Shown: positions 2 to 22,778 of the stretch, piece after piece
Position numbering within the stretch: the stretch's first letter is position 1
Layout of the letters: every line of letters starts with the position of its first letter
Source: Pseudomonas silvicola
GTDB lineage: Bacteria > Pseudomonadota > Gammaproteobacteria > Pseudomonadales > Pseudomonadaceae
Length of the DNA stretch: 64,000 bases
Direction: 5' to 3'
NCBI RefSeq assembly: GCF_026651855.1
Contig: NZ_CP093280.1
Location: 5,062,001 to 5,126,000, forward strand
Translations under genes and position numbers: made by a program
Notes under the pieces: generated by a model
What the model was told of the DNA's origin: nothing
The model's database searches: none
What the model saw: only the letters and a program-made list of their open reading frames with translations

Positions 2-3000
2 CTCCGGCCACCTGTCCCCATCCCCGTGTTAGCGGCGATCTCTTCTCTTCCGGAAAGCGCTGTCCGAAGTTTTGCACTGGACCTTGGACGCCCGCTATTC
101 ATGAAATCGAATACCCTTCACTTCCTGGATGAGCCTGCGGAAACTTGGTTTCGGGAGCGATTCAAGCCGACACGCGCTAATCTCGACGCCTTCATCGAGC
201 GGCTGATGCCGCTGGCCAGCAATAGCTCCTACGTCGCAGCCACGTTACCGCAACTGCTGCTATCCGGGGAGCGCATCGATGATTTGGTTCGGTTAGCGCT
301 TTCGGAAGAAAGTCTGCCGACGACAAACCCCCTTGAACGCAGGGACGTCGAGCTTCAGCGCCTACATTTCGCGATCAAGGCGTGCTTGCGCACCGACCGC
401 TACCCTGCTGCGGCCAAGCTGGCACTAAAAGCGGCCGGGGAAGCAGCCGGGGAAGCCCGCCAGATCAGCCTGATCCAGAGCAATACCGACCTGGCTGCTG
501 GCCTACTTTCTGCTGAGCGCATTCAGGAACTGGTAGCGAAGCGTACCTTTGAGGCTGGCTGGTTGGGATCAAATCATGCCTATGACGCAGGAGTACTCTC
601 GGGCCAATCAGAGCTTTTGCCTGAGGCTGGCAGCCAGCTTCGAATGGCCATGGAATGGTTGATGTCCTGGGGGCGTCTTCCAGAAAAGGAGCGTGAGAAC
701 GAGCAGGTCAGTGACCACGACCGTGCCGAGATGGCGCTGGCTCATCTGCAGGTCGATGGCGCAGCGGCAGCTGTGGGCTTTCTACGCCTCTGGAGGCCAC
801 AGTCGCTCGTGTTCAAGGCAGGCCTGCAACTGGCAAGCCGCCTCGTGGACATGGGCAAATTTGGCCTGCTTGATGCCCTCGCGGTGGAAGGAACTGCTGA
901 TACATGGCTGTTGCTCGCGATAGCAAGGGAAGCAGGCTTGGTAGGACATCATCTACCCGTCCAGCCATTGCGCGCCTTGATGCAAGAATTAGACGACAGC
1001 CAAGCAACCTTGGAGTACTCCGCTCAAGCGCCCGAGCAATGGCTTCTGCTCGAGGCCGTCACAGCCGCCGTAACCATGTCATTGAAGTTGCTGCCTCGCA
1101 CGCAGGAGCGTTGGGCAGAGACAATCCGGCGCTATTTGCCGACCACTCCGCCGCATGAGCTGTCAAGCTTTCATGGCGGAGACACAAGTCCTTTACTCCG
1201 GGCATACGCGCTGCATTCAGCGCTCCTAGGCGAAAAACTGGAGCTGGAGTCGCTAGCGCCGCCACAGGCCCAGGAGCAGCTTTCTGGTGACAACAGGCGT
1301 GGGCGCGCCCGTGACGTCAGCGCTTTAAAAATGATGACGGGGGGCATTCTCCCCTGGTTTGTACTCGGCGCTGAAATCGCCTGTCACAGGACTCCCGTTG
1401 ATATTGCCGCAGCAATCGACGATGCATTGACGGTCACGGATCGAGTAGCGCGCGATGACCATCAACGTATCTTCAATGGTCAGCAAATCGCGGCGATTGA
1501 GTGGGCACGACTTTTACGGGACTCAGCTGAACTAAGCGAGGAAGCTATCCGCACCTTTCGTGGCTGGCTGGATAAGTCCCCCGCCATCCTCGATGCGACA
1601 GGGTTGATCGCGATTTGTAGGATTGCGTCGCGCACTGAAGGGCTGAGCAATCTGGCATTGGATCTTTCCGTCCAGGCATTCGCCTGGCTAGACCAGCATA
1701 GAGAACATGCCGAGACCCAGATCGAGGGGATACAGCAATTGGCTCGGGCGGTGTACACCGTAAGTCGCAGGGAAGCAGGTGCCTACTTCGCCCGGGCGGT
1801 CGAGATCGCCAGTCGCATCGGTGAAGAAAACACACAACGTTGGTCGGCGCTTTTACAGCTGGCCGAGGCGGGCGCGGCTGGCGCGCTTTCGCGCCCGCGG
1901 ACCGCGTACCGCTTATCAAGGGCCGCGGAACTGACCTATGAATACGTTTACAGAGATAAACATTTCGATTGGGGCGGCACCGTCAGTGCGCTGTCGAAGC
2001 TATGCGGATCGTCGACGCTGGCCATCCTCAGTCGATGGCGTGATCGCGGTTTTGGTGATCCTGATCGTCTGATCAGATTCGCCATCAATGAGCTTGTGAG
2101 TGACGGTCAGTTGTCCGCTGTAACGCCGGTTGCCCTGCTGGGGCTGGCCGCTGGCTGGGACTCTCTGCAGGTGATTCGTAGCGCAATCGATGACGAGCCT
2201 GACATCGCTAAGCGCAAACAGATTTTGCACACAGCTTTCCGCTATTGCCGGGTACAACCTCATGGCCTCTCTGACTGGTCGGCCTTTGCTTCCCTTGCGA
2301 CCGAGCTCGGCACCCTTCTCCCCGATGGAGAAAGGCTGCTGCGGTTTGCCGAAATGGCAGAAGACAACGGGCGACCAACTGTTGCAGCCAAAGCGGGAGG
2401 AGCAAGACCGGAAAAGGACGGACCTGATTGGGATGCACTGTTTGCAGGGATTGATCTGGAGGATCCGAATGGACTGCTGGGTATTCGCAATGAGCTACAG
2501 AACGCAGATCAAGGGTCTCGCACGGCTTCACTGATGAAGGAAGCCGTCGCCCGGGCATCGCCCGGCGCCCTGCCTGGAGTGATAGACGCGATCGCGGCCT
2601 GGCCAACTTTCGGCATTTTTGACCTCAAAGATCTTATCGCCGCCATCCCCTCCACGATGGTCTCGCTTCTTTCCGTCCGCAATGCCTTGAAGGAGGCGGT
2701 ACTGACCGCGTGCCGCAACAATCCCGAGCTAGCCCAGCGCAAGGGTTGGGGCAATGTGTTGAAATTCGAAAACCTCTATGCAGCCGGAGTGCTGACTGAG
2801 CATGCGGTGGTCACCGCGGTGCTGGAGGGTTACGGGCGGAAGGAAGATTTCGAAAGCAGTGATTTTTTCGCGCTAATTGATCCATTGGCCTCGCGTTTGA
2901 CTGCCGATCAGGCCGACGAAGTACTGGGGTTTGGGTTGGACTTGCTGGAGAGTATCCTGCAGCCAGCGGACGGTGATGGTCCTTGGCACGAGCGGCTGCA

Positions 3001-4600
3001 TCCCCCTGCGCAAGTGATAGACGCCCTCGCTGGCTATCTATGGGTGAGGCTTGGCTCTCCGGCCGCGGCAGAGCGGTGGAAGGCTGCACACGTTGCGAGG
3101 AGCTGCATAGAGCTTGAATATGAACCGCTCATTCGGGCGCTAGCCGCTCGTGCGTCGTCCGCGTCACCGGCCCCCTTTACTGACCAGCGGTTGGATTTTT
3201 ACCAATGGCATGCGCACCAATGGTTTCTCTTCGCGGTAGCACACGCTGCTCGTGACAAACCGGATCTGGTGATGCCCCTCCTGCCGTTCCTCAAGACCTC
3301 TACAATCCAAGAGCATGTCATCATTCGGCATTATGCTGCGGAGGCGATGATGAGCTTGCATCAAGCCAGCTATTTGGCTGCAGATGAGGTTGGAGGACTC
3401 AACACAATCAACGCAGGCGAACTCCCTCTATGGGATTACTCCGGCTGGCGAGCTGAGACCGAAGAACAGGACGCGCTGGACGGCGACGATGCGCAGGCGC
3501 ACTCCTTCGACATCGACATCAGCCAGTACTGGTTCAGTCGCTTAGGAAGAGTATTTGGTCTATCCGCCACCACGGTGGAGCGAATGGCTCTAGACGTCAT
3601 TCGTCGAGAACTTGGCAATCCCGGCAACGCCCAGGATGATGCGCGGTACACATTAAATCTGTTCAAAGATCAGGCCACCCGCCATTCCCATGGCTCTTTG
3701 CCGCGAGTGGATGATCGTCAAGCCTATCAGGCCTATCACGCAATGATGATCCTGGCAGCACGCCTGCTCAAAACGCACCCCATAGGGCGCAGCGAGTATA
3801 GTGCGCAAAACGATTTCGAAGAGTGGCTCAAGTATCTGACGCTAACCCGCGCGGACGGACGCTGGACTGCTGACCGGCGGGATCCGTCATTGGTCAAGCA
3901 AGTTGAGAAGCCAACCCGATACGGCGATACCGACTGGTGCTGGGAGATTACTCGGGAGAGTTTGGATCGTCATTGGCTTGCCGATGATGGCCTACGGGTC
4001 GTGTGGGGAGATTGGCGCACTGGTGACCAGCAATACGAAGAGACTGTTTCAATACGCAGCGCGCTGGTGACCAAGAATGCTGCTGGAGCATTGCTCGCTG
4101 CGTTGCAGACAGCGCCAAATCCCGACGCCGTTTATTTCCCGACCCCAGACGCGACTCATCTCCTCGGCGGCAAAAGCCTGGCCATTACCCTGTGGGTTGA
4201 GGAGGAAGGGGGGGCACTCGGACTGGATGAGTATGATCCTTGGGCCGCCGGGCTCAGCTACCCTGGACCAGGACCCACAATGAGCACAGTGGGAACGTTG
4301 GGACTGACTACGGATGCGGACAACCGGCTCTGGCAGACGCCAACCGGAGCGATGCTGCGAAGTGAGGTCTGGGCAACTGCAGTCGGCTTCGACAGGGACG
4401 AAGAGTACATCTCTGGTACGCGGCTCAGCGTTGATGCCTCTTTTATGGCCGAGCTACTGGCCGCGTATCCGAATGACTGCCTGCTGATTCGTACCTCCGT
4501 GCGGCGGCGCCTGCCTGGTCATGACCGGACCAGTGCCTATGAGCCGCGTCCTTGGCCCTATGAACGTTATTTCCTGGTAGAAAATGATGGAATCACTTGA
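2..4600 (+). CDS. Large helical-repeat protein, C-terminal part (5' end outside window)
   Basis: The frame is open from base 2, so the GTG at 26 is probably internal and the gene starts to the left of the window. At least 1,530 residues are visible. The first 40 or so look like the end of a winged-helix or NTPase-adjacent segment. Residues about 50-1,150 are almost wholly alpha-helical, rich in Ala/Leu and without membrane segments, as in the superhelical sensor part of STAND/NACHT-type proteins. The last 250 residues are more beta-rich and Trp/Tyr-rich. No Walker motif is visible here; if the protein is a STAND ATPase, that domain lies upstream. The stop overlaps the next gene by 17 nt, implying co-translation. 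The neighbourhood of transposition modules and nuclease-like genes suggests anti-phage defence, but that is inference. I do not recognise the family precisely. Confidence 0.8.
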   Translation, partial: LRPPVPIPVLAAISSLPESAVRSFALDLGRPLFMKSNTLHFLDEPAETWFRERFKPTRANLDAFIERLMPLASNSSYVAATLPQLLLSGERIDDLVRLALSEESLPTTNPLERRDVELQRLHFAIKACLRTDRYPAAAKLALKAAGEAAGEARQISLIQSNTDLAAGLLSAERIQELVAKRTFEAGWLGSNHAYDAGVLSGQSELLPEAGSQLRMAMEWLMSWGRLPEKERENEQVSDHDRAEMALAHLQVDGAAAAVGFLRLWRPQSLVFKAGLQLASRLVDMGKFGLLDALAVEGTADTWLLLAIAREAGLVGHHLPVQPLRALMQELDDSQATLEYSAQAPEQWLLLEAVTAAVTMSLKLLPRTQERWAETIRRYLPTTPPHELSSFHGGDTSPLLRAYALHSALLGEKLELESLAPPQAQEQLSGDNRRGRARDVSALKMMTGGILPWFVLGAEIACHRTPVDIAAAIDDALTVTDRVARDDHQRIFNGQQIAAIEWARLLRDSAELSEEAIRTFRGWLDKSPAILDATGLIAICRIASRTEGLSNLALDLSVQAFAWLDQHREHAETQIEGIQQLARAVYTVSRREAGAYFARAVEIASRIGEENTQRWSALLQLAEAGAAGALSRPRTAYRLSRAAELTYEYVYRDKHFDWGGTVSALSKLCGSSTLAILSRWRDRGFGDPDRLIRFAINELVSDGQLSAVTPVALLGLAAGWDSLQVIRSAIDDEPDIAKRKQILHTAFRYCRVQPHGLSDWSAFASLATELGTLLPDGERLLRFAEMAEDNGRPTVAAKAGGARPEKDGPDWDALFAGIDLEDPNGLLGIRNELQNADQGSRTASLMKEAVARASPGALPGVIDAIAAWPTFGIFDLKDLIAAIPSTMVSLLSVRNALKEAVLTACRNNPELAQRKGWGNVLKFENLYAAGVLTEHAVVTAVLEGYGRKEDFESSDFFALIDPLASRLTADQADEVLGFGLDLLESILQPADGDGPWHERLHPPAQVIDALAGYLWVRLGSPAAAERWKAAHVARSCIELEYEPLIRALAARASSASPAPFTDQRLDFYQWHAHQWFLFAVAHAARDKPDLVMPLLPFLKTSTIQEHVIIRHYAAEAMMSLHQASYLAADEVGGLNTINAGELPLWDYSGWRAETEEQDALDGDDAQAHSFDIDISQYWFSRLGRVFGLSATTVERMALDVIRRELGNPGNAQDDARYTLNLFKDQATRHSHGSLPRVDDRQAYQAYHAMMILAARLLKTHPIGRSEYSAQNDFEEWLKYLTLTRADGRWTADRRDPSLVKQVEKPTRYGDTDWCWEITRESLDRHWLADDGLRVVWGDWRTGDQQYEETVSIRSALVTKNAAGALLAALQTAPNPDAVYFPTPDATHLLGGKSLAITLWVEEEGGALGLDEYDPWAAGLSYPGPGPTMSTVGTLGLTTDADNRLWQTPTGAMLRSEVWATAVGFDRDEEYISGTRLSVDASFMAELLAAYPNDCLLIRTSVRRRLPGHDRTSAYEPRPWPYERYFLVENDGIT

Positions 4601-5252
4601 CCGCTCCAGCGCCGTAATTGAACTGGGGCGCCTGTTGGTGAAACAACTCAACTTGGGGGACGACCTGATGGCTCAGTGGCTGGCCCATCTGGTTGCAGAG
4701 CGCATGGCCGAGGCCGAAAGTGCCGTGGGCGATGAGCGAGTTGCAGCCCAGGCGAAATGCCAGCAAATGATCCTCACCCTCTGGGAGTACCGCAACAGTT
4801 TTCCTTCGGAGCAGCGTCCATTCAACGGGCTTGAGCCACTGATGGCAACACTGCAGTCCCTGGACATCAGCAGTGAGCAACGCTTTCGCTACTTCCGTCG
4901 GCACCCAACCCCAGGCGAGCTCGATGAGGTTGGGACAGGCAAGGAGTTACTAGATGCGGCGGCAAGCCTGGACAAAGCCGCACGCGTATTGATTCATCAA
5001 CTGCTCGGTGACGCCGCGAAGGTTGCGGCAGTGCAGGCGAAGCCTTGGATCGAGGCTGCGGGGCAAGCAGGGGCAGATGCGGCAGCTGAATTGGCCGTCC
5101 TGGAGTTCGTCTTGAGTGACGATGAAGCGCTCGACGGCAATGAACAACAACGCCCTACGATTACCCAGAAAGTGGCGGCCTTGGAGGTCTTTATTGAGCT
5201 TGCGGCCATCGCCGCCGCGGAGTATCGCGCCTTACTGGCAACTCCGAGGTGA
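4584..5252 (+). CDS. Hypothetical 222-aa partner of the upstream giant protein
   Basis: The ATG lies inside the last codons of the preceding gene (17-nt overlap), so the two are translationally coupled and probably form one functional unit. A second in-frame ATG follows immediately and could be the true start. The product is soluble and predicted almost entirely helical, with no signal peptide, no Cys/His cluster and no recognisable catalytic motif. Acidic and alanine-rich helices dominate the C-terminal half (from about residue 130). A small helical protein encoded after a large helical-repeat protein could be a regulator or adaptor of it. I do not recognise the family. Confidence 0.8.
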   Translation: MMESLDRSSAVIELGRLLVKQLNLGDDLMAQWLAHLVAERMAEAESAVGDERVAAQAKCQQMILTLWEYRNSFPSEQRPFNGLEPLMATLQSLDISSEQRFRYFRRHPTPGELDEVGTGKELLDAAASLDKAARVLIHQLLGDAAKVAAVQAKPWIEAAGQAGADAAAELAVLEFVLSDDEALDGNEQQRPTITQKVAALEVFIELAAIAAAEYRALLATPR

Positions 5253-8158: not shown

Positions 8159-10105
8159 TCAGGTTTGAATTGCGACCGTTCCGTCTGCGTTGACCAGCAA
8201 GGTTGCCATCTTCCAGTCGCCCAATTGCACTCCATGCGTAGGCGGGGTTACCACGAGAGTGCTGTTCCGGAGGGTGATACGGCCGCGCAGGTGTCCCGCT
8301 GGAAAATGGCCCGGCTCGCTATAATTACGCACGATGACTTCATAGCGCTTTGCATTGAGTTGGTAGATGTTGATCATCTCGACGCCAGGACCCTCTCGCA
8401 CGTCTTCGAGTAATTGCGCGAAAAACGGCGCCTTCAGCCCTCCCCGGTTTCTGAAATCAACCATGACTTGCTCATTGCTCGTGTCGAGATTAAAGGCAAG
8501 TGCTAGGTCGATATCTTGCAAAGTCTCGTCCCACTCCACTTCCAACGACACCTGTGGGTGCGCTAACTCTCCTACCGGTATGACAACCTTAGTAGCATCA
8601 GCGCGCGGTTGCGAACGCGGCTCTGGAGTCGATGAAAGCGTCGCGGGTGCCGAAAACAGCGTTGCCCGTAAGAATTCTTGCAGCCCATCCGAAGCGTTCG
8701 GTACCGCGTCTCCAATGAACCGTGCGCGATTGCGAACCTCAGGCTCTAAGGCATCCAATAATGCTGCCTCGGTCACCGGGCCATGGTTAACCACCAATAC
8801 GGTCGCAAAACAGCAACTGCGCGCATAATCGTTAGCTGCACTGGAGAAGTTGGAAGTGCTTTGCTGCAGGTAATGTTTGCACTCAACCACCAAGCGGGTG
8901 GCATCGTTCGTTGTTGCCGTCCCACCTTCACGAATCACCCTGAAGTCCGGCTGGATGGCGCGCTTGCGCTTGCGGCTTGCCCCCACCAGTTCACTGCGTA
9001 CTTCACAGTGAATGGAAAAACGCTCGCCATGCGCCTCGTAACTGGCCAACGAACTACCCCCAAAGGCGAACGACAGCACCCTATCGCGAGGATGGAATTC
9101 AAGTTGGCGTGCGTGCTGCTTGGCGACGTTCAGTAGGCGTGTCCCGACCCAGACCGAATAGAGCTCATGGCGTCGTTTCCAGGTCGGTAGGTTCAACAGG
9201 TCAAGTAACTCCTGGTAGCTCTCATCGATCCACTGTTGCTTGACCGGAATCAATTCTACCGCCCGCATAAGTATTTCGAAAGTACGGTCTTGCTCCAGGT
9301 CCCGTGTGCTCAGGCCGTCCTTGATGAAGTTGATACTATCGACAATTGAAACATCCCAAAAATCGGTTGCATCCACGATCCTATCGAACTCCTCCTGTTG
9401 CTCCGCAGTCCTGGGGGTGCCTTGCCGTTGCTCATTTAGGCGACGAAAGTTGTCTGTCCGCGATAGCCCAACGGAGCTGCAGCGCTGCAGAAAATCTGCC
9501 ACGGCGGCTTCCAGCGCGAGCAAAGGCACACGAAATCTTGCAGGAGCAGGTCTGGCATTGACCTGAGGCGCGTCTGGCAGGCTATCGTCCGGGCGATTTT
9601 TCCAATGCAAGCGGAGGTCGGACAGTATGTTACTGATTTGCCAACGCTGTTGCTGTGACAGCGGTACGAAGCGGCTGGCGCACACCCGACGCGTACGCTG
9701 CTCATACACTTGGAACTGCTCAAGAGTCAACTTCAGCGGGCCTGCCACAGCATCAAAGTTGAATTCGAACTCAAGGTTGCTTTCGCCCAAGGTACCCTCT
9801 GCCATGACGAGCGTTTCGAGAATCTCGTTCATCATGGCCGCAAAGCCCTTCTGCGATTCCAATAAGGCAATCAGCAAGCGCTCCACCGTCACCGTCGGTA
9901 CAGGTAAATCCTGGTCAGCCTCTAGTAAGGCTCTGATCGTTTGGTATGCCCCGGCGGTGCCTCTGGCGGGGTCCAGTTGCTGGAGAACGGCCACCTCCAT
10001 ATCAGCATCCCGCCCCGGCTTTTGTTTAAGCCGAAGCTCTAGGCCAGCCTGTTTGATCAAACGTGTCCATAGTTGGCTGGGTGTCAAATTCTTTGCGCTT
10101 GGCAT
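8159..10105 (-). CDS. Predicted PD-(D/E)xK nuclease with C-terminal YfaP-like domain
   Basis: The 648-aa product has three parts. Residues about 1-300 are helical and unrecognised. Residues about 305-450 resemble a PD-(D/E)xK nuclease core: a helix with Glu314 in 'HELYSVWV' (like the first-helix Glu of McrC/DUF2357-type nucleases), Asp387 in 'IQPDFRV' and Glu408-x-Lys410 in 'VVECKHY'. Residues about 515-648 are beta-rich and share the Asp-rich start (Asp531-Ile-Asp-Leu), the 'GPGVE' step and the 'YEVIVRNYS' strand with YfaP/DUF2135 domains. The gene stands alone, facing tnpS, and is bracketed by the two tnpS copies. Host-defence or DNA-conflict function is inferred from the nuclease core and context. 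The domain assignments were made by eye. Confidence 0.75.
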   Translation of the reverse strand: MPSAKNLTPSQLWTRLIKQAGLELRLKQKPGRDADMEVAVLQQLDPARGTAGAYQTIRALLEADQDLPVPTVTVERLLIALLESQKGFAAMMNEILETLVMAEGTLGESNLEFEFNFDAVAGPLKLTLEQFQVYEQRTRRVCASRFVPLSQQQRWQISNILSDLRLHWKNRPDDSLPDAPQVNARPAPARFRVPLLALEAAVADFLQRCSSVGLSRTDNFRRLNEQRQGTPRTAEQQEEFDRIVDATDFWDVSIVDSINFIKDGLSTRDLEQDRTFEILMRAVELIPVKQQWIDESYQELLDLLNLPTWKRRHELYSVWVGTRLLNVAKQHARQLEFHPRDRVLSFAFGGSSLASYEAHGERFSIHCEVRSELVGASRKRKRAIQPDFRVIREGGTATTNDATRLVVECKHYLQQSTSNFSSAANDYARSCCFATVLVVNHGPVTEAALLDALEPEVRNRARFIGDAVPNASDGLQEFLRATLFSAPATLSSTPEPRSQPRADATKVVIPVGELAHPQVSLEVEWDETLQDIDLALAFNLDTSNEQVMVDFRNRGGLKAPFFAQLLEDVREGPGVEMINIYQLNAKRYEVIVRNYSEPGHFPAGHLRGRITLRNSTLVVTPPTHGVQLGDWKMATLLVNADGTVAIQT

Positions 10106-11063: not shown

Positions 11064-12071
11064 TCAGAGTCCAGCACCACTGAACGTCATCGGTTCAGGT
11101 GCTGCGATGATCACCTGGTCGTGCTCTATCCGCAGCGCGAAGTGGTGGCGGTTCCGCGCGCTCACCTGGCGAGAGAAGAACCGGTAAAACTCATGAGGTT
11201 CTTCCATTTCGATATCAAAGGTGATCGCCCTTATTTTATGGCGATCCAGCAGCTTTTTCAGGCCGTTTCTGAGTCTGCCATATTCAGCTATTTTGTTGCA
11301 CTCCTGGCTCTTGGCGCCGAAGTAGTGAATGAGCCCATGCTCCAGCAGCTCCCCCTCTTCGACCCGCTGGACCTCGTCGATCAGCGAGTTCGCGATCATG
11401 AAGTTCAGCATGAAATTACTGTTCTCTGCCACGGAAACCACGCTGAAAATGTTGTAGAACACGAAGACGTCGGTTTCTTCCGGCGACAGTGGATAAACAG
11501 AGTCGCCATAACCTCGGTGATCGCGGCTCAACGGACGCGTGGCAGGATCATCCGTAGACCCAACGTAGAGCACTTCGGTGTCGATCCCCAGATTGACGTC
11601 ATGAAGGATCAAAAAATCATGGATAGGCAACGCGATCGCCTGCTGACCTTCCTCGCCCTCGACCAGGATAAAACGCCCATCCTCAGTCAAGGTTGGCAGG
11701 GCGAACCGGCGTGCCTCCTTGGGTATTTCCAAGCGAAGCTGTTTCAATTTTTTTGCCCGCCCAACCTCGAGGTGGATCACCAGGTACTTTCGAGACAGGG
11801 ATCGTTTCGGTGGCCTGCGGCAACAGAACCTTACCCGCTGCCGTGCAGCGATGAAGTACACAAATCGCTTATCGGCGCTATTGCGGACGGCCTCCCGGTG
11901 ACTATCGAGGAGTGCTGCAGCTTGCCGCTGGACGTCACACCCCTCCGGTGGGTTGACGATCAGGTCAAACCAGAAAAACTTCGAGTGGAGCAAGCCGACC
12001 CGCCACTCTTTCTGCGCCTCGGTGTACGCCGGTTGATTGGCAATGAAATTGAAATAACCTCGCGTGCTCAT
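11064..12071 (-). CDS. Hypothetical protein with GIY-YIG-like C-terminal half (335 aa)
   Basis: The frame is open to 12203, but the ATG at 12069-12071 is preceded by AAGGAG at about 8 nt, so I take that start. Residues about 150-262 contain an ordered set resembling a GIY-YIG nuclease: 'LYVGST' (168-173, YIG-like), Arg179 and His185 in a basic loop, and a helix with Glu241/Glu244 in 'ELLEHGLIHYF' leading to Asn259. The last pattern matches the metal-binding Glu helix of that fold. No clear first GIY strand is visible, so the match is partial. The N-terminal 150 residues are mixed alpha/beta and unrecognised. It is divergent from the 1259-aa gene with about 180 bp between starts, suggesting shared control. 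Function is not known; a nuclease or modifier in a defence locus is an inference. Confidence 0.75.
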   Translation of the reverse strand: MSTRGYFNFIANQPAYTEAQKEWRVGLLHSKFFWFDLIVNPPEGCDVQRQAAALLDSHREAVRNSADKRFVYFIAARQRVRFCCRRPPKRSLSRKYLVIHLEVGRAKKLKQLRLEIPKEARRFALPTLTEDGRFILVEGEEGQQAIALPIHDFLILHDVNLGIDTEVLYVGSTDDPATRPLSRDHRGYGDSVYPLSPEETDVFVFYNIFSVVSVAENSNFMLNFMIANSLIDEVQRVEEGELLEHGLIHYFGAKSQECNKIAEYGRLRNGLKKLLDRHKIRAITFDIEMEEPHEFYRFFSRQVSARNRHHFALRIEHDQVIIAAPEPMTFSGAGL

Positions 12072-12252
12072 CAGCGGCACTCCTTGCACAATGGTCTGAA
12101 ATAAACTCGGTGTCAGCAGAATCCAGCTGTAGCCAAGACCCAGAATAATCCCGGCAGGCAGCTTCCCAGCCGGCGCCTTGTCGCCTATGGTCCGCGCCAG
12201 CATAATGCCTCTACCATTAGCAGGCAGCGTTCAGCTGGGCAACGGACGGCAC

Positions 12253-15200
12253 ATGCACAAGCTTTCAGAAAACTGGCATCTCCTCAAGACAATTCTCGAT
12301 GGTCGTGTTCGCCATCCTCCTGCAGAAGACCCTTACAGCTACGCCGCCCATGTGCAGGCGTCGGCAAAAGCGATCTTCCTGGCGAATGCGAGCCTAGCGA
12401 CGCCTCAACTCAGCCGCGAAGTCGTCGAGCAGTTGCTCAGTGGCGAGCTCTGGTGGCCAAGCGGCTCGCCCTCCGCCAGGACGCCAACGGAGCTTGCCCC
12501 CCTGGCCACCCTGGAGCGCTTTGGCGTGGTGGCCTTCTACGCAAACTGGTGCAGTCTGCACTGTGACTCCCTGCGAAAGCTCGACGACATTGACCCCAGC
12601 TTGCAGCCGTTGGTCAATTCGATCCACCTCCTCCAAGCGATCATCTCCGGCAGCAACGGCTTCCTCCGCCCTGACTTCAGGCTACCTGCCCCGCAACTGG
12701 ATGCGCAGCTGGCATCCAAGTTCAGCAGTCAGGCCGCCACCGAGGTGCTCCCGCAACTATCCTTGCACGCGGGCTATTATCACCTCACGGGTGATGGCTG
12801 GAGCCCGCTGGACAGTACACATTTGTGGATGAATCTGCGGGAGACCCTCAGCGCTGAAGAGGCCATGCAACGGTGGTTACTGTGTCAGCGCGTGATCTGC
12901 GCCTGGGCCACGCCGGTACTTTTCGAGCATCTCGAATACGAAGAACGTTTTCAGTTCGAAAATAGCCTCCTTGCTTATCTGGCCGACGACCCGGCACTCG
13001 GTGGCTCGCTGGATAGCCTTTATCGACAGATGATCAACCGCGATCGATTTTCCAGCCTGCTGTGCCCAGTCGAGATACACATCCATACGCGGGTCGATGC
13101 CGACGGCACCACGCAGCGACACGACCAAGAAGTCGCAGGCACCCAGCCAACGCTGGCGACCTTTGAGGACTGCTATCCCGCCCACAGGGACTCACCCTTG
13201 AGCGAATTGCAGTTTGCTTGTCAGCGATCGCCCTTCGTTCAGGGCCGAGAGCTGGAACTTTTCTACCCCTGGCTCCTGGCCAGCGTTGCTGAAACGAGCG
13301 TGCGCATTGACCGGCTCGACCTGAGTGCATCACCGTTTGTCGCCACGCTGATCCAACAGGCTGCCGACCGGCCGATTCTCAAGCACCTGCTCTACAACAC
13401 TTTGCTCGACTACGAGCACTCGGCATACAAGTTGTTTCTGCTCTCGGAGGCTTCCACCTGCGATGTGGCGCTACACCATTTGAGCCAGCGCCTGTTTTCG
13501 AGTATGCCGCGGGAGCCGCAGCCGTTCCATCAGTACCTCGATGACGGCTATCGACACCTGGTTTGCCAGCAATACCTGCGCTCCCTCGGCGACGCGGATA
13601 CCGCGGGTGACCGACTCCTGGAGGTGGTGTCGATGCTGGGAGAGCGGTGCGCTTGGGATGGCAAAGAGTTTGCTAGCTCCTTCGAATACCGCTTTTTACA
13701 GTGCCTGCTTGAGCAGTTGAACTCGCCACATGCCGAACAGCTGGCCGAGCGCTGGATTCAACATCTGCTAAATTCGCGATTCCCGGAGCCCTTCCGTGCT
13801 GCGCCGCACCACTGGTATTTTGTGGGCTTCTGGCTGCTGGAGCGCCTTGAGGCCGTCGAGCTGGATTCTCCTCGGACCATACGGCAATCCCTGAAAGAGG
13901 CCCTGCTCTCTTACTACAGCCGCGATTTCACCGCCACCCTGGAAGGAGAGCAGCGTAATCTGTTACCTACCGTACTGTTCTCCTCGTTGCCTTGGCACAA
14001 GCTGCTAGGCACTGAAGAAGCAGTGCCCCTGCTTGCGCTGTCCCGTGGACATAAGCAGTGGTGCACAAAGCTTAGTTTTGCCAACGAACAAGGCTTTTCC
14101 GCTGCCTCTGCGGTGCGGCAATACTTGCAGGTGCTGATGCAGATCGGCCGTCCCTTGCGCAGCAGCGAAACGTGGTCGCGCGTAGCCTTGAGAATCGTTG
14201 ATATTGTCAAAACCTGGGGATTTGGAACCAGGGAAGACGGCATTTTCCTGTTCGACCATGCCTTGCTCGACCGGGAGTATGATCCGTGGCCGACCTTCTG
14301 TGCCTATACCAACCTGCTGAGTAATGAGGTCTACGAGGACTTTGTAGATCAGTGTGCGGAGATCATCCCTCTTGACCGACTGTTCAGTTTGCTTGAACAC
14401 TCTTCCGTCATCGTCAGAGCACGGCAAATCCAAGAAATTATCGCGGCTCGTGATACCACCGTTAACGACGACATGGGACTGCCCGCGCTCGAACAAGCCT
14501 TCCTATCCGCCTGCCACGCTGGCCATACCACGCTGGCCAAAGCCGTGATGACGAAAGCAGTTGACTTTCTCCACCAAGAGCGCTTCGCCACCACGAAAAA
14601 CCCTAATATCTTGCGAGCCCGCACCGTTTGGCAGACCTACGAGTATAAATGGCAGTTGCTGCAACTATTGGACTCGTCTCAAACGCCTGCATCGGATTTT
14701 GCCAACGCGGTCAACCAGGTCCAAATTCCCCACAGCAGCCGCCCCTATGAGCCAGCGGCTCGGGGGCAGCGGCAAGAATGTGAGCGTTTCCGCCGTTATA
14801 TTCTTGCGGTTGGCTACTGCGAGGCAGAGCCGGAAAAGACCGTGACGATCATGGAAGCGCTGTATGCAGAAACAGGCCAGTCTTTTCACGCCTTCCAGCT
14901 ATTTAAAGGTCGGCTCGCAGCCCAGCGGGACATGAGTGACGCTGATCAAATCAACCGCGCCATCACTCAGTTTCTGCGCAGTGTTGATTCAATTGCCCCT
15001 GAAGACATGCCTACCGCATGGGTGGTGGCGGTCCTTGAAAGCTACGCGAAACTTCGGGAGCTTGAGCACTGCGAGGACTTCTGGCGCCGGCTCAGCCCGG
15101 ATCAGCAGTTCCGAATCGAAATCCTGAAGCCTTATTGCCTGGCGCTCATTGCCGGTGGAAAGCCATTGGTTGCCCAACAACTCGTGCATGGCTACCGGGA

Positions 15201-16032
15201 ATTCAACGCGCAGTCTGAAGAGGACCTTGGCCTGGACACCTTGGTTGACGAACTGGCCAAAGCTCAACCGAAGGAACTGTCGATCAGCCGAATGATTGAC
15301 GTTCTGAATGAAGACTCGCAACGTAGCAATGTGCAACTGACCAAGCATTACGCACAGATCATTGCGAAAGAGCTTGAGGATTTTGTGCTCATCACTGGCC
15401 AGGGACGATCCGTAGCCGAATACCTCAAAGACGCCGTTCTGGCTGTTGCCAAGGAACTACAACTGCGCACAAAAAATCTGCAGATCGCTGCTGGGCCAAC
15501 GCCAACCTCGATCAATAGCCGGATTACGAAAGAAGACGAGATCAATGATTGGTTCACGTCGCTTTTTGACCAGCGTATGGCCGGTGCGCGCATTGGGCTG
15601 CGGGATCAAAAGCGTGGAGGTGTTTCCCCCAGCGGCAAGAGCCCTGGCGAAATCGATGGATACGTCACCAGCGCGACTAATCGGCGTGTCGCAATTTTTG
15701 AGGCGTTTCGCTTATTTTCTGCAGATACAAACGTAATTTTTGATCACTTAGGCAAACTCGCTGGCTACGATCAAGAGTCGTTGAGTCCTGTTTTTATCGT
15801 TGCCTACTGCGATGTTGCAGACTTTGAGCGCCTGGTAAAATCGTATAAAGACCTGGTTGCCCAGCACTCCTACCCCGGTTTTGCGCCCCTATCGGACACT
15901 GCGGCGATCACTGATCTGGAGGATGGCGAGCAACTTTGGCTGGGGACTGAGACTCGTCTCCGTGGGCCACGGGAGGTCATCTTCTTTCACTTGCTGCTGA
16001 ACATGCGCCTCCAGTCGGTCGGGGGCGGTTAA
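12253..16032 (+). CDS. Very large helical protein with C-terminal degenerate PD-(D/E)xK-like domain (1259 aa)
   Basis: The frame is open from a TTG at 12178 with ATGs at 12187, 12205 and 12253. I prefer 12253 because the sequence becomes protein-like there, though no strong ribosome site decides it. Residues 1 to about 1,040 are helical and lack signal peptide, membrane segments or Walker motifs. The last 170 residues form a compact alpha/beta domain with 'GEIDGYV' (Asp1135) and 'AIFEAFRL' (Glu1150), then a helix containing His-Leu-x-Lys-Leu. This Asp...Glu-Ala arrangement resembles restriction-endonuclease-fold domains in which the usual ExK lysine is replaced. The gene is divergent from the GIY-YIG-like gene and lies between mobile modules. 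A two-gene conflict system is plausible but unproven. Confidence 0.8.
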   Translation: MHKLSENWHLLKTILDGRVRHPPAEDPYSYAAHVQASAKAIFLANASLATPQLSREVVEQLLSGELWWPSGSPSARTPTELAPLATLERFGVVAFYANWCSLHCDSLRKLDDIDPSLQPLVNSIHLLQAIISGSNGFLRPDFRLPAPQLDAQLASKFSSQAATEVLPQLSLHAGYYHLTGDGWSPLDSTHLWMNLRETLSAEEAMQRWLLCQRVICAWATPVLFEHLEYEERFQFENSLLAYLADDPALGGSLDSLYRQMINRDRFSSLLCPVEIHIHTRVDADGTTQRHDQEVAGTQPTLATFEDCYPAHRDSPLSELQFACQRSPFVQGRELELFYPWLLASVAETSVRIDRLDLSASPFVATLIQQAADRPILKHLLYNTLLDYEHSAYKLFLLSEASTCDVALHHLSQRLFSSMPREPQPFHQYLDDGYRHLVCQQYLRSLGDADTAGDRLLEVVSMLGERCAWDGKEFASSFEYRFLQCLLEQLNSPHAEQLAERWIQHLLNSRFPEPFRAAPHHWYFVGFWLLERLEAVELDSPRTIRQSLKEALLSYYSRDFTATLEGEQRNLLPTVLFSSLPWHKLLGTEEAVPLLALSRGHKQWCTKLSFANEQGFSAASAVRQYLQVLMQIGRPLRSSETWSRVALRIVDIVKTWGFGTREDGIFLFDHALLDREYDPWPTFCAYTNLLSNEVYEDFVDQCAEIIPLDRLFSLLEHSSVIVRARQIQEIIAARDTTVNDDMGLPALEQAFLSACHAGHTTLAKAVMTKAVDFLHQERFATTKNPNILRARTVWQTYEYKWQLLQLLDSSQTPASDFANAVNQVQIPHSSRPYEPAARGQRQECERFRRYILAVGYCEAEPEKTVTIMEALYAETGQSFHAFQLFKGRLAAQRDMSDADQINRAITQFLRSVDSIAPEDMPTAWVVAVLESYAKLRELEHCEDFWRRLSPDQQFRIEILKPYCLALIAGGKPLVAQQLVHGYREFNAQSEEDLGLDTLVDELAKAQPKELSISRMIDVLNEDSQRSNVQLTKHYAQIIAKELEDFVLITGQGRSVAEYLKDAVLAVAKELQLRTKNLQIAAGPTPTSINSRITKEDEINDWFTSLFDQRMAGARIGLRDQKRGGVSPSGKSPGEIDGYVTSATNRRVAIFEAFRLFSADTNVIFDHLGKLAGYDQESLSPVFIVAYCDVADFERLVKSYKDLVAQHSYPGFAPLSDTAAITDLEDGEQLWLGTETRLRGPREVIFFHLLLNMRLQSVGGG

Positions 16033-18296: not shown

Positions 18297-19349
18297 TCAA
18301 CCTACCAGTAAATAGTTAAAGGATTTTTTAATCGACGGCGCCCAAGCTTGAGATCGGTCACGCAACCAAGCTAGATAGCCCTGGTTAAATCCGACTTCAC
18401 TATGCATTCCCCACCATAGCCTTTCGACCCCATCGCTATAAGGTCTAGAACGAGTGCTTGTTAGATAAATCCGCATGCAGCCTGGAATTTTGATGAACAG
18501 CCCTAACAATGCGAACATTGCCATCCGCACCGGAGGGGTGTGCTCCCCCGGAGAAAAACATAAAAGACGCTCACAGCCCGCAGATGGTGAGAGATCAGAG
18601 CTCAAAGTAGACCAGCCTTTGATATCCAGCAAGCGGGCGATGTAAGATCTCGCATCATATGGGTGACGCCTTTTCTTCCCTATGATGGCCAAAACGTCAT
18701 CCATGAACAACTCAAACTGATCCTGGCGAGCGTCTATTACTTGGCCTGCGATAACAAAACGATTTTTGTGCACCGCTGTCAAATACCATTGCTGAAAAGC
18801 CGATGCCATCAAAATAAGCATTTTATAGGATGGGGGCCCAACCTTTCTCATTTGCCAAACTGCGTAGGACTCATGCCTGCGCCAAACTATTTCGGGACCC
18901 CATATTGCGTCCAGTGCGTTAAAGAGTGCAATAGCCGGTTCAGTGCTGTTTAGGCGTTTCAAAATGCCCCCATGTTCAAGGCAAACGTTGAACCATAAAT
19001 GGCCCCAAAGCCTGCGCGTTGTCGGCTGGCGGTGACACTTGAAATCCTCGATCAGGCAATGTTCGCACATAAACTCTCGCTCAATACCGGGTATCACAAG
19101 CCAATTACCAGTGGGAGAGAATGCATGGTTAAGTAGTGTTGGAGAGACATTTAAAGTCGTAGCTATTTGTGAAAGAATCCTAGGCGGGATCGGGACATTA
19201 TTTTCGGATAGATTATATTTTAAAAGTTGCTCGCGTGCGCGAGCAAAAGGTAACGGGTTCGCACTTGCCTCCCCGCGAAGCAGCCAGGCGGAAAAAAGTT
19301 CATTGTCGAGTGGCTTTATCAAACCAAACAGTTCAGAATTACTTCTCAT
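18297..19349 (-). CDS. tniQ: TniQ/TnsD-family target-selection protein
   Basis: The 350-aa product has the TniQ signature: an N-terminal 'ELFSAWLLRGE' helix, then a zinc ribbon with Cys95-x2-Cys98 and Cys123-x2-His126 around 'HLWFNVCLEHG'. A helical C-terminal region follows. TniQ proteins connect the AAA regulator to the insertion target and, in Tn7 relatives, can bind specific DNA. The length is between Tn5053 TniQ (about 400 aa) and the short CRISPR-associated TniQ. It overlaps the tniB stop by 11 nt. The C-terminal 200 residues may carry the DNA specificity, but no defined helix-turn-helix can be placed by eye. Confidence 0.88.
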   Translation of the reverse strand: MRSNSELFGLIKPLDNELFSAWLLRGEASANPLPFARAREQLLKYNLSENNVPIPPRILSQIATTLNVSPTLLNHAFSPTGNWLVIPGIEREFMCEHCLIEDFKCHRQPTTRRLWGHLWFNVCLEHGGILKRLNSTEPAIALFNALDAIWGPEIVWRRHESYAVWQMRKVGPPSYKMLILMASAFQQWYLTAVHKNRFVIAGQVIDARQDQFELFMDDVLAIIGKKRRHPYDARSYIARLLDIKGWSTLSSDLSPSAGCERLLCFSPGEHTPPVRMAMFALLGLFIKIPGCMRIYLTSTRSRPYSDGVERLWWGMHSEVGFNQGYLAWLRDRSQAWAPSIKKSFNYLLVG

Positions 19350-20271
19350 ATTTTTTGTAATCTACATAGGGCGGAATAAAAGCAGCTTTAGCCAAGCACT
19401 CCATGTCAATTTGTTCCTTTTGATCCATAATTGCCCATATAGCACCGCGCTTAATACGCTTAACGATGCCATCGGTAATACCCAACGTTGCGTTGAGCAG
19501 ATACCTGACCTTTTCCTGTCGCCAGAGTTCGGACGGTTTTTTCAGCGGCAGGAGGCTTTCATAGGCCGCGAGAAACGACCTAAATGCCTCGTCTTCTTTC
19601 CAGCGGTTTAGTTCGTATTTTTCAAAACGCCGGTCCAGTTGATCATCACTGGCTAACGCAAATTTGGCATCTTGTGTCCCGAACGCGATCAGTGACAGGG
19701 ACAATGGCGGACCTGTCATCGATCTGAAGAAAGTTAATACCTTTCTTTGCTCAACCTTATTTGCATTAAGTAGATCATGAATCTCATCTATCATCACCGC
19801 CTTGATGCTCCGTAAGCGCGCCATCCGGACAAAAGGCTTAGGGATTAATCCATTCCGGATGCTTCCAAAGGGTACACCTAGTGCTGCACCCATGCTCTCC
19901 TCGAATCCTTTGAGGGATGGATCAGGTGCTAGTGTGAAGGATATATAGCTTCGTGGGTCATGATGGCGTTTCCTTAGCAAGTCGAAGTCGCTGGCTACCT
20001 TATTAAAAAGGCTTGTTTTGCCCATGCCGGACACTCCTGAAACAACCACGCACTGAGCCTGGGTGGTGGGTGGCATTTCATAGACAGCCCTGATGACCGA
20101 CCTTACAGAATTAACCTCGGAATGGTTTACCCAACAATCCTTGAGGATTACCTGAAATCGGGAATTATCGTCAAGTGTTGCTAGGTGACGGCGTGATTGT
20201 GAGATGTGATCAAGGTTCTCTAGAGCCATTTTTTTCATAAACTCACCGACACTTAGGCTAATCTTCCACAT
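19339..20271 (-). CDS. tniB: TniB/TnsC-like AAA+ ATPase (transposition regulator)
   Basis: The 310-aa product carries Walker A 'GVSGMGKT' (79-86), Walker B 'AVMIDE' (158-163) and a sensor-like 'IAFGTQDA' segment. An arginine-rich 'DRRFEKY' motif (about 213-219) closes the ATPase core. Proteins of this group polymerise or assemble on DNA in an ATP-dependent way and bridge the target factor and the transposase. The first ATG overlaps tniA by 14 nt; an ATG 11 codons downstream, after the tniA stop, is an alternative start. Position and size match TniB of Tn5053 (about 300 aa). Confidence 0.9.
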   Translation of the reverse strand: MWKISLSVGEFMKKMALENLDHISQSRRHLATLDDNSRFQVILKDCWVNHSEVNSVRSVIRAVYEMPPTTQAQCVVVSGVSGMGKTSLFNKVASDFDLLRKRHHDPRSYISFTLAPDPSLKGFEESMGAALGVPFGSIRNGLIPKPFVRMARLRSIKAVMIDEIHDLLNANKVEQRKVLTFFRSMTGPPLSLSLIAFGTQDAKFALASDDQLDRRFEKYELNRWKEDEAFRSFLAAYESLLPLKKPSELWRQEKVRYLLNATLGITDGIVKRIKRGAIWAIMDQKEQIDMECLAKAAFIPPYVDYKKYEK

Positions 20272-22102
20272 CGAATAACTTAGGTTTCCGACTATAATCA
20301 GCTGATACCGAAGTCATCGATGAGGGTTGACCAGAATTTAGTGGATGGGCGGGATCTGTCTGCCTTTGGTGCTTGCGTTCCCTATGTTTTCTAACCTGTT
20401 TCGTCTGTTTTACCGCGTTCTGCACTAAATTCTCGTTGCGGTTTATCAAAGCAAATACCTGTTCAGGCGTAACCCGGCGATCACTATCCTGCGCGAGCTT
20501 TTTCCTGGCATAATTGAACTCGGACAAGGATGTATCTGGCATCCGAACGTCAGAATAGGTCAGCTCAATATATTTTGTCTCTCCCTCAGGCATGACCCAT
20601 ATCTTACTAATGGATTCGGGGTCATACCGAACTATACAGCGATGCCCGATATTGAAATATTTCAGGCTGGCAGAGTAATAATCAATGTTATGTAACCTCA
20701 CCCCTCTCCTTCCTATGACTCGCCTTTTAAGTGGCATAAAATCGATAAGCAAGCGTACCCGGTCTTCAATTATTGGCGGATAAGAAAATGAACCGTTTGA
20801 AGTTAAAAAATGCCTCTCCCATTTGAGAAGTGGTGAACAACCTAATTCGGAATGTGTTTTCTTATGGTATATTTCGATCTCGTTTACAAACCATTCGCGA
20901 AATTCTGAAAAAGTCAAAGCCGAGTGCTTCTGGCTATCGTACTTCCCCCTTTGTTTCACCGACGACATCGTTGTACCTGGCAGCAAGTGAACCTTCTTCA
21001 TCAAGGTCCCAATCAATCGCTCGATATGCGCTCCGTTATGAGGCATCGCTGGAGGTCTATATGTGAGTTTAATGTCATACAGTCGACAACTGTTTTTTAA
21101 CGTTTGCGATTTAAACTCCTTGGCGTTATCAACATGAATTCTTTTTGGCACTCCGTAAAATGGGTAGTCTATCGATTCAATGCCATACTTCTTTAACCAC
21201 CAATCTTTTGGCAATACCATGTGAGCGATACATAACGCAACAGACATCGAGGAAGGATGCGCAAGGGATAAGTGAATCCCTACAACAGATCGTGTAAAAA
21301 CATCGATGGCTAATGTTGCCCAAGGTCGCCCCAAGGGTAAGCGTTCTTTGCTGTCAACTATGATGCAGTCGACGAGCGCATGGTCCATTTGAACAAGTTC
21401 AAGTGGGGCCAGTGGAAGTATTTTCCCTCCACGCACTTCATATGCTTGTGAAGCAACCTTTGAACCTTCTACTTGCTTCAGAAGCTCTTTTGGATCTTTG
21501 CTTTTAATTCGCTGAGTAATCGTACCGTCACTAGGGGCGACTATCCTCAACTCTCGACAGCGATCCTTAACCTTCTCGATCACCACTTGAAAAGTCGCGC
21601 CTTTTCCGACGTAATCTGTTTCAATCACTTCTTCGATAATTTCCTCTGCATCAGCTGCAATCTGTTTCTCACCTTTTAATCGACCACGTTTCTGAGGAAG
21701 CAAACTCATGAAGCCTGAATTAACATCAAGCCTTGCAATCAACCTATAAAGTTGTGAAACGCTCAACCCTAAATCTACAGCTAAAAATTGAGATTCCTGC
21801 TTCGTCATTTTTTTATTCTTGAGGGGAAGCAATACTTCATAGCGCCGTTCAGCTAGCATTATTTCAGTCTCACCCACATTGTCTAGAAGCGTGATATTTC
21901 TATCAATATTTTTGGGGGTGAGTTCGCTGCCCGACATTTCTCGTCCAATTTCAAAATCGATGTCGGCTGCGCGGATCGAGATAACTTCTCCAGTGCTGAT
22001 ATCTCTGGCTGGAAAAATAGAAATCGATTTGGACGGAAGAATTTCGAGTTTTCTATTACCCGCAACCACTATGACTCCGGGTTTCAAGTCAATTGTTTTC
22101 AT
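20258..22102 (-). CDS. tniA: TniA/TnsB-like DDE transposase
   Basis: The 614-aa product is a Mu/TnsB-type transposase. Residues about 100-200 contain helix-turn-helix segments for binding transposon ends. The RNase H-like core has Asp240 ('QMDHALVD'), Asp325 ('IHVDNAKEF') and Glu361 ('HIERLIGT'), giving the expected DD(35)E spacing. A beta-barrel Mu C-terminal type domain follows (about 450-540), and the tail is basic. It is the first gene of the leftward tniA-tniB-tniQ operon. The start at 22102 has only a weak ribosome site, and about 600 AT-rich bases lie between it and the presumed element end. No tnsA partner is seen, so replicative (cointegrate) or resolution-dependent movement is expected by analogy with Tn5053. 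Confidence 0.92.
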   Translation of the reverse strand: MKTIDLKPGVIVVAGNRKLEILPSKSISIFPARDISTGEVISIRAADIDFEIGREMSGSELTPKNIDRNITLLDNVGETEIMLAERRYEVLLPLKNKKMTKQESQFLAVDLGLSVSQLYRLIARLDVNSGFMSLLPQKRGRLKGEKQIAADAEEIIEEVIETDYVGKGATFQVVIEKVKDRCRELRIVAPSDGTITQRIKSKDPKELLKQVEGSKVASQAYEVRGGKILPLAPLELVQMDHALVDCIIVDSKERLPLGRPWATLAIDVFTRSVVGIHLSLAHPSSMSVALCIAHMVLPKDWWLKKYGIESIDYPFYGVPKRIHVDNAKEFKSQTLKNSCRLYDIKLTYRPPAMPHNGAHIERLIGTLMKKVHLLPGTTMSSVKQRGKYDSQKHSALTFSEFREWFVNEIEIYHKKTHSELGCSPLLKWERHFLTSNGSFSYPPIIEDRVRLLIDFMPLKRRVIGRRGVRLHNIDYYSASLKYFNIGHRCIVRYDPESISKIWVMPEGETKYIELTYSDVRMPDTSLSEFNYARKKLAQDSDRRVTPEQVFALINRNENLVQNAVKQTKQVRKHRERKHQRQTDPAHPLNSGQPSSMTSVSADYSRKPKLFDVED

Positions 22103-22778
22103 TAAGGTCTCACAGAAAACGGCATTACGCCTCTAAAAACCCTAGCTAAAACTGCAAAAAATGCAACCGCGCACAGCATATTGGCTCAACTACTTAGATT
22201 TTTTAACAGGCGTACAGAAGTGCGGTGCTCGATCTTCCTTCTACGATCATAACCACTAGAATCAAGGTTGCAGCCGAATTTACTTGCGCTACAGATCAAG
22301 TATTACCTCAGTGACGGGGCACGCGGGGCTAGCAATAAATTACCTGATCGGGGTGATATCTAGGTGTTGTGCATTGCTCGCCGGACCTTGTTGGTAAATT
22401 CAAGAGCGCCGACGCATGTGCAAATTCTCGGTCGGTACCTCGCCCTTGCAGGCTCGCCAAATAAAAAACCTGTTGAACCTGCCGCAGGCCTCGTCGCTAT
22501 TCGCGCTAGCAGTGTGGAAAAAAAGGTGGTGTAGCTGTTGTGGAAAATCCACAAAAAATCTAGGCGCCTCGCCCATAGTTAAAGATGCGAAAATCCTCTG
22601 ACAACTCAATGAAAGATGCGAAAATTGCCAATTATCGCTTGAACAATTTACCGTGATGAAAATAGTTCCAATAAAATCAACAACATAGCTCTTTCGCAGC
22701 TTTTGATAATCTCGACAGTGTGGCGCTTTCCGAGAGCCAGCCCTCAAACCCAGGCCAGCTCCCACCTTGAATACCTCG
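22103..22778. other. AT-rich transposon end region and junction to the chromosome
   Basis: These 676 bases hold no gene I can support. They contain a 14-base direct repeat (22581, 22612) and a related inverted copy near 22690. A 7-bp hairpin (TTGTGGA/TCCACAA, 22538-22554) is also present. The AT-rich sequence ends about 22715, after which composition is GC-rich, leading into the 3' end of yidD at 22779. Confidence 0.55.
22581..22715. repeat. Candidate transposase-binding repeats and right terminus
   Basis: AAAGATGCGAAAAT occurs at 22581-22594 and 22612-22625 (31-bp spacing). An inverted relative, TTTCGCAGCTTT, lies near 22690-22702. Just beyond is ACA at 22713-22715, which reads TGTCGAGATT inward on the lower strand, matching the 5'-TGT tip of this transposon superfamily. 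Composition changes at the same place. The terminus is a prediction without its partner end. Confidence 0.45.

Follow-up and report, generated by a model that had tools for sequence, protein, structure and literature searches.

A rare 1259-residue protein of Pseudomonas silvicola, with a predicted alpha-solenoid and a mobile nuclease-like C-terminal module, as a candidate single-gene defence protein

What might a gene of 1259 codons do when it lies between defence genes on one side and transposition genes on the other? The question is raised by a stretch of 64,000 nucleotides from Pseudomonas silvicola (assembly GCF_026651855.1, contig NZ_CP093280.1, positions 5,062,001 to 5,126,000, forward strand), here called the window, in whose own numbering positions are given. 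The gene in question occupies 12253..16032 (+ strand), and tblastn relatives and a predicted model give its product the layout of an alpha-solenoid followed by a C-terminal nuclease-like module. A first-pass annotation had described a mostly helical protein with a lysine-less nuclease-like ending and had joined it to a divergent GIY-YIG-like gene in a two-gene system. From sequence comparison and structure prediction we consider it on balance probable, if only slightly so, that the gene encodes a sensor-effector defence protein acting as a single gene, in a defence island beside Tn7-like transposition genes; the GIY-YIG-like gene is probably not its partner.

That the 1259-aa protein is the product of a real gene is borne out by 14 distinct relatives. 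The mechanically called open reading frame (ORF) opens at TTG 12178; ATG 12253 was taken as the start because the relatives begin there. When the protein was used as a tblastn query, matches were obtained in 5 of 72,556 records of the plasmid collection, three of them spanning at least 80% of the length (Burkholderia pyrrocinia, Salmonella enterica and Edwardsiella ictaluri), at 9 loci in bacterial genomes (Janthinobacterium, Sideroxydans, Halothiobacillus, Citrobacter, two Acinetobacter, Leclercia, Pseudomonas and Vibrio) and in 3 contigs of the viral collection. De-duplication left 14 loci (L004, L005, L006, L011 to L019, L021 and L023); G772 (the genome of L014), L022 (inside L023) and L084 (the contig of L021) were dropped as duplicates, and L007, a C-terminal piece adjoining an insertion element, stands outside the count. 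The layout of the window protein is common to these relatives, 11 of which are full length and 3 broken or cut (L016 in pieces, L018 split close to its end, L019 cut at a contig edge), and identity to the window protein is about 22-45% over the main pieces. Such genes are rare: among 398 genomes of the phylum, a profile search matched 3, namely its own genome, the genome of L014 and G758, the last limited to the C-terminal module. No significant match of the protein was found in Pfam, NCBIfam, PADLOC or PHROGs (the best PHROGs match, E 0.7, is noise).

An AlphaFold2 model was built for residues 60-1259 from 13 aligned rows, with model residue 24 corresponding to about protein residue 83; its mean predicted local distance difference test score (pLDDT) is 78 and its predicted template modelling score (pTM) 0.59. 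Residues ~83-1076 (model residues 24-1017; 12499..15480, + strand) form a chain made up mostly of helices, predicted to be an alpha-solenoid, in agreement with the earlier description of the protein as mostly helical. Foldseek and VIA-align returned solenoid-type folds of the importin, APC/C and TPR types, as any helix chain would give. The C-terminal module, delimited by the model and a module alignment at residues ~1090-1259 (15520..16029, + strand), has the order helix-strand-strand-strand-helix-strand. It lies within an alpha-beta unit at model residues 1035-1191, which reads helix, three strands, helix, strand, helix, strands; in model numbering the elements are helix 1035-1049, strands 1056-1059, 1075-1080 and 1086-1095, helix 1100-1113 and strand 1121-1127. 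The core of the PD-(D/E)XK superfamily, to which restriction enzymes and the effector nucleases Cap4 and NucC belong, has the order alpha-beta-beta-beta-alpha-beta, and the modelled order of the module fits it. Ten-residue mean pLDDT in the module core is 63-89, except for one loop at 39.

The same module ends, or accompanies, quite different proteins. With the window protein as query, it was detected in ORF333 of the Escherichia coli phage P2-EC5 (E 4e-4); one near-copy of P2-EC5 (99% identical, L079/L083) was dropped from the counts. With ORF333 as query the module was found in 4 plasmid records, the matches being to a Vibrio coralliilyticus protein (1e-19), to Roc-COR-LRR proteins of Photobacterium toruni (1e-9) and Spirosoma linguale (5e-7) and to the B. 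pyrrocinia big protein (1e-4). The two Roco proteins that end in the module (WP_256385014.1 of P. toruni and ADB42932.1 of S. linguale) have identified LRR, Roc and COR domains; in P. toruni the gene (L080:3697-6435, plasmid NZ_CP101696.1) and a helix-turn-helix gene are flanked by the tniB and tniQ genes of a type I-F CRISPR-associated Tn7-like transposon. In three further places a gene of AAA_15 type, assigned by Pfam in P2-EC5 and V. coralliilyticus and by similarity in G655, stands directly 5' of the module gene: in the P2-like proviral locus that holds P2-EC5 ORF555 and ORF333 (L010:243-2913), on a V. coralliilyticus plasmid (p337; L082:3344-5966) and in genome G655 (L089:5257-8016). The G655 copy was the new one among 4 matches in 398 genomes to a profile of 12 modules, and consists of an ORF555-related gene followed directly by an ORF333-related module gene. 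These ATPase and module proteins form a candidate defence pair. A divergent copy was recognised by module alignment in a 1217-aa protein of G758 (L040:5367-9020, - strand), for which neither Pfam nor the plasmid collection gave a match. At least three architectures, and perhaps four, have the module in common and differ in the front part or the partner gene, and by sequence comparison it is reused on quite different sensor-like proteins (solenoid, Roco GTPases, AAA_15-linked).

Which residues are retained across these settings was read from an alignment of 12 modules, 7 from the solenoid family, 2 AAA-linked, 2 from Roco proteins and 1 from the 1217-aa protein. Invariant in all 12 are an E, a D-Q pair, two G, a D, an E, an H, a K and a Y. 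In the window protein the first of these is E1094 in the first helix of the module (15532..15534), followed by the GEID motif at residues 1132-1135 (15646..15657) with invariant D1135, the FEA motif at residues 1149-1151 (15697..15705) with invariant E1150, and an HxxK motif at residues 1165-1168 (15745..15756; all + strand), in which H and K occur in 12 of 12 modules and which is helical in the model. The Asp...Glu-Ala ending reported earlier is conserved. In the model D1135 and E1150 sit on core strands two and three, with K1168 on the next helix. The residue two places past the second Glu is never Lys in the aligned modules, so that "lysine-less" is correct for the classical E-x-K place but not for the module as a whole, in which K1168 is invariant; since the one lysine is missing and the other always present, "lysine shifted to the next helix" is the better wording. 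K1168 may stand in for the classical lysine in catalysis and is our candidate for a shifted catalytic residue. A string GVSPSGKS in the window module was also considered as a Walker A motif; the other modules show SGQS, SGLS, SDKN, SAKS or a gap at this place, and the reading was dropped because the GxxxxGKS-like string is not conserved among modules.

Is the module, then, a nuclease? A PD-(D/E)XK-like nuclease fold is suggested by the motif and by the order of elements in the model, with no significant profile support. The module resembles the superfamily in its modelled secondary-structure order and in the acidic E...D...E residues; it differs from it in the replaced E-x-K lysine, in the invariant K of the next helix and in the lack of a significant profile match. 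Several results tell against a nuclease. A Pfam search of the window module at E up to 10 gave nothing, PDB sequence searches gave no relevant match, and neither Pfam, PDB sequences nor the PDDEXK_4 profile linked the module significantly to a known nuclease. Profile-to-profile comparison covered one nuclease family, PDDEXK_4, with GIY-YIG as control; hhalign gave PDDEXK_4 a probability of 0.8% against 0.9% for the control, and 1.9% against 0.2% with the wider alignment A8. The fold searches matched the solenoid alone and barely probed the C-terminal module, and pLDDT falls below 50 in the loop ahead of the GEID motif. In the register found by hhalign, at the same 0.8% probability, GEIDG...FEA is aligned onto the catalytic strands of PDDEXK_4, and weak hints come from P2-EC5 ORF333, which scored E 0.08 (whole protein) and 0.038 (module alone) against PDDEXK_4 and E 0.0042 against the PADLOC CARF-PDDEXK model. 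The PD-(D/E)xK-like ending described in the first-pass annotation is thus upheld by motif and model order, but not by any significant profile or PDB sequence link to nucleases. The missing profile match and the loss of the classical lysine from every aligned module would also suit a catalytically dead nuclease fold that is a binding or oligomerisation domain only. This we regard as unlikely, as the invariance of E, D, E and K across four protein architectures is not needed by a dead fold.

If the module is active, the following course of events can be proposed. The solenoid is taken as sensor and the module as effector because the module stays constant across architectures while the front part or partner gene varies; sensor-effector immune proteins such as STAND proteins and CBASS effectors are usually built in this way. 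The ~1000-residue alpha-solenoid would sense some product of infection and thereby release or assemble the C-terminal module. To judge from conservation and the model, the module would work as a PD-(D/E)XK-like nuclease with its lysine in the next helix (E1094, D1135, E1150, K1168), most likely a metal-dependent DNase, and once freed might cut phage DNA, or any DNA in an abortive response.

Several other known systems come close. Avs/STAND proteins are large, with a repeat-like helical region and a nuclease-like effector at one end, and the predicted anatomy of the window protein resembles this; unlike them, it has no P-loop NTPase family match, and its putative effector is at the C-terminus. 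Family scans gave no NACHT, AAA or STAND match for it, and its P-loop-like string is the non-conserved one mentioned above. The Roco proteins of P. toruni and S. linguale carry the same C-terminal module, but have LRR, Roc GTPase and COR domains in place of the solenoid. In the AAA_15-type pairs of P2-EC5, V. coralliilyticus and G655 the module is likewise at the C-terminus, here of the second protein, whereas the ATPase is a separate gene directly 5' and there is no solenoid.

The surroundings of the window copy and of some relatives point to defence. The 3' part of Avs3a (its frame opens ahead of the window, near -1621) and Avs3b occupy 26..5252 (+ strand), and Avs3 ends about 7 kb from the 1259-aa gene. 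In the same genome the start of Avs3 lies 5' of the window, together with a GajA-like gene and a Septu-like PDC-M01AB pair. Window positions 26-5252 and L037:8724-17468 (Avs3a/b, GajA-like, PDC-M01AB) together make up a dense defence island around the gene. Among the relatives, an OLD gene lies less than 100 bases 5' of the big gene in L004; in L017 qatA and qatC lie 5' of it, with about 1 kb and one unscanned ORF between the end of qatC and the big gene; and in L011, the Janthinobacterium relative, PDC-S06 and an LmuA-like gene lie 5', their ends about 4.7 and 1.9 kb away from it. The earlier suggestion of a long scaffold that ends in a nuclease-like module and stands in a defence setting is supported by the modelled solenoid and alpha-beta module, by the occurrence of the module on other sensor-like proteins and by Avs3, the GajA-like gene and PDC-M01 nearby. 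The defence reading is weakened by other observations. L012 and L014 adjoin ordinary metabolic or housekeeping genes, L005 and L014 are 95% identical and both counted among the 14, and the PADLOC scan covered chosen neighbours only, so that the defence neighbourhood is a pattern and not an enrichment.

On its other side the gene is followed by tniQ (18297-19349), tniB (19339-20271) and tnsB (20258-22102), all Tn7-like genes on the - strand, and TnsB-like genes also lie near the big gene in L013 and L015. With these neighbours, and with the module-bearing Roco gene inside a CRISPR-associated transposon, between its tniB and tniQ, the gene might be cargo that serves some other end, such as shielding the transposon from rival elements or acting as a regulatory scaffold for the host. 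We hold this to be quite unlikely: relatives occur also on a plasmid, beside a TraI_2 gene of conjugation type (L018) and on contigs called viral, and no TnsB relative is among the genes seen there. Tn7-like transposons often carry defence genes (PMC8649781).

Is such a defence protein new? Taken together, the evidence suggests that the 1259-aa protein represents a kind of phage-defence protein not described before, and literature searched by terms gave no description of the solenoid-module family. The main doubt over novelty concerns Upx of Gao et al. 2020, reportedly an uncharacterised single PD-(D/E)XK protein. If the window protein belonged to this or another published single-gene defence system, the family would already be known; the window protein, too, is nuclease-like and encoded by a single gene, its family is represented in an enterobacterial NCTC strain, and Upx is listed in the literature as a defence system. 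When 13 family rows were compared with PADLOC, a single weak match (Cas3, E 0.027) was obtained and none to Upx, the presence of an Upx model in PADLOC being unestablished. Membership in a published system seems doubtful to us.

The wider proposal can be offered tentatively, as a possibility falling short of probable. It holds that the module is an undescribed, horizontally mobile effector nuclease with a helix-shifted lysine (E...DQ...GExD...E...HxxK), joined to sensors of at least three unrelated kinds, namely a giant NTPase-free alpha-solenoid, Roco GTPases (one in a CRISPR-associated transposon) and AAA_15-type ATPases, and that the solenoid protein is an NLR-like immune receptor which senses and acts without an NTPase switch. 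If this is true, one effector module ties giant solenoid proteins, bacterial Roco GTPases and AAA ATPase pairs into one defence logic. Bacterial Roco proteins, relatives of human LRRK2 within the Roco GTPase family, would gain a testable output, and an immune-receptor candidate without an NTPase switch would be at hand, with four defined residues to mutate.

Does the protein need the divergent gene beside it? The neighbour (11064..12071, - strand) was read as 335 aa because its relatives begin at M45 of the 379-aa ORF; it matches the PHROG_7779 family (E 2.7e-51) and has no significant match in Pfam or NCBIfam. A pattern YxGxT..P..R..HRG and E...I.YF is conserved in its family, and YxGxT, R, H and E do not vary among the 4 sequences aligned; both the start and the YIG-like and Glu motifs described earlier agree with the relatives. 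The best profile match to PF01541 lies at the YIG string, at 5.6% probability against 0.1% for the control; PDB sequences gave no relevant match, and a structure model (pLDDT 31.5) is unusable for fold assignment.

The earlier proposal had been that the big protein and its GIY-YIG-like neighbour form a divergent two-gene system, with the region between the genes as shared control point. In its favour, the two starts are divergent and only 181 bases apart in the window, and neither protein has a significant Pfam or NCBIfam match. To examine the pairing, 80 loci outside the own genome were searched with both proteins by tblastn. The big protein was found in 19 of them (14 distinct) and the GIY-like protein in 14 (several near-identical prophages); both together were found in none. 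The GIY-like gene is absent from the fetched flanks of all 14 distinct big-gene relatives, and the big gene from all 14 (partly redundant) GIY-family loci. Among the 14 big-gene loci, 10 have flanks of at least 8 kb on both sides; in L012 and L021 one flank is short, and L013 and L019 are little informative. The same-genus genome G023 carries a GIY-like copy about 92% identical, with an ORF of 337 aa that spans almost the whole 335-aa gene (a longer frame accounts for the two stops counted in this copy), and has no match to the 1259-aa protein. A relative in an E. coli phage adjoins an integrase; among 5,426 E. coli genomes the gene is present in 61, always on the chromosome, and the two copies opened both adjoin an integrase. 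Because the genes do not co-occur in these loci, the two-gene reading with its shared control region was rejected and is now highly improbable. The first-pass annotation had proposed this very comparison and had named rare joint occurrence as the outcome that speaks against a pair. A conserved partner of any other kind was looked for by all-against-all comparison of flanking ORFs (at least 90 aa) from the 14 loci and 11 window genes, and scattered pairs only were obtained, among them the TnsB-like genes of L013 and L015.

The neighbour may instead be viewed by itself. A GIY-like profile search of 398 genomes matched its own genome only, and the plasmid collection gave 1 record from Serratia and 4 from Acinetobacter; of the latter, one copy was opened and adjoins Tn7-like genes. 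GIY-YIG domains are known from the single-gene defence system PD-T4-3/CMoRE (PMC12923530) and from PD-lambda-1 (PMC10952713). The neighbour resembles CMoRE in having a GIY-YIG-like pattern in a protein able to occur as a lone gene, and differs from it in the position of the pattern, the domain being N-terminal in CMoRE and the YIG-like string mid-protein in the neighbour. It differs further in giving no PADLOC or PDB match, the coverage of CMoRE by those libraries being unestablished.

In the space between the two genes one weak sigma-70-like site is present, with hexamers TTGTCG-17-CATAAT (12178..12206, + strand) 46 bases 5' of the ATG of the big gene; the scanned region holds 4 such sites against a mean of 1.7 in shuffles, a weak excess.

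Some further features of the window and its genome were recorded. Two exact copies of AAAGATGCGAAAAT lie at 22581-22625, beyond tnsB, and look-alikes in the same orientation are found about 15.3 kb before the window; these copies are perhaps TnsB sites of one or two elements. The G+C content lies at 44-60% over the first 26 kb or so, except for 65% at 6-8 kb, whereas the rest of the window has 62-67%. The genome itself (G000), at 8.65 Mb and with an estimated contamination of 8%, is larger than the other same-genus genomes compared. Finally, a 648-aa gene at 8159..10105 (- strand), with no significant family match, contains a string VVECKHY that resembles a PD-(D/E)XK motif, and partial relatives of its product occur in 5 plasmid records, mostly rhizobial.

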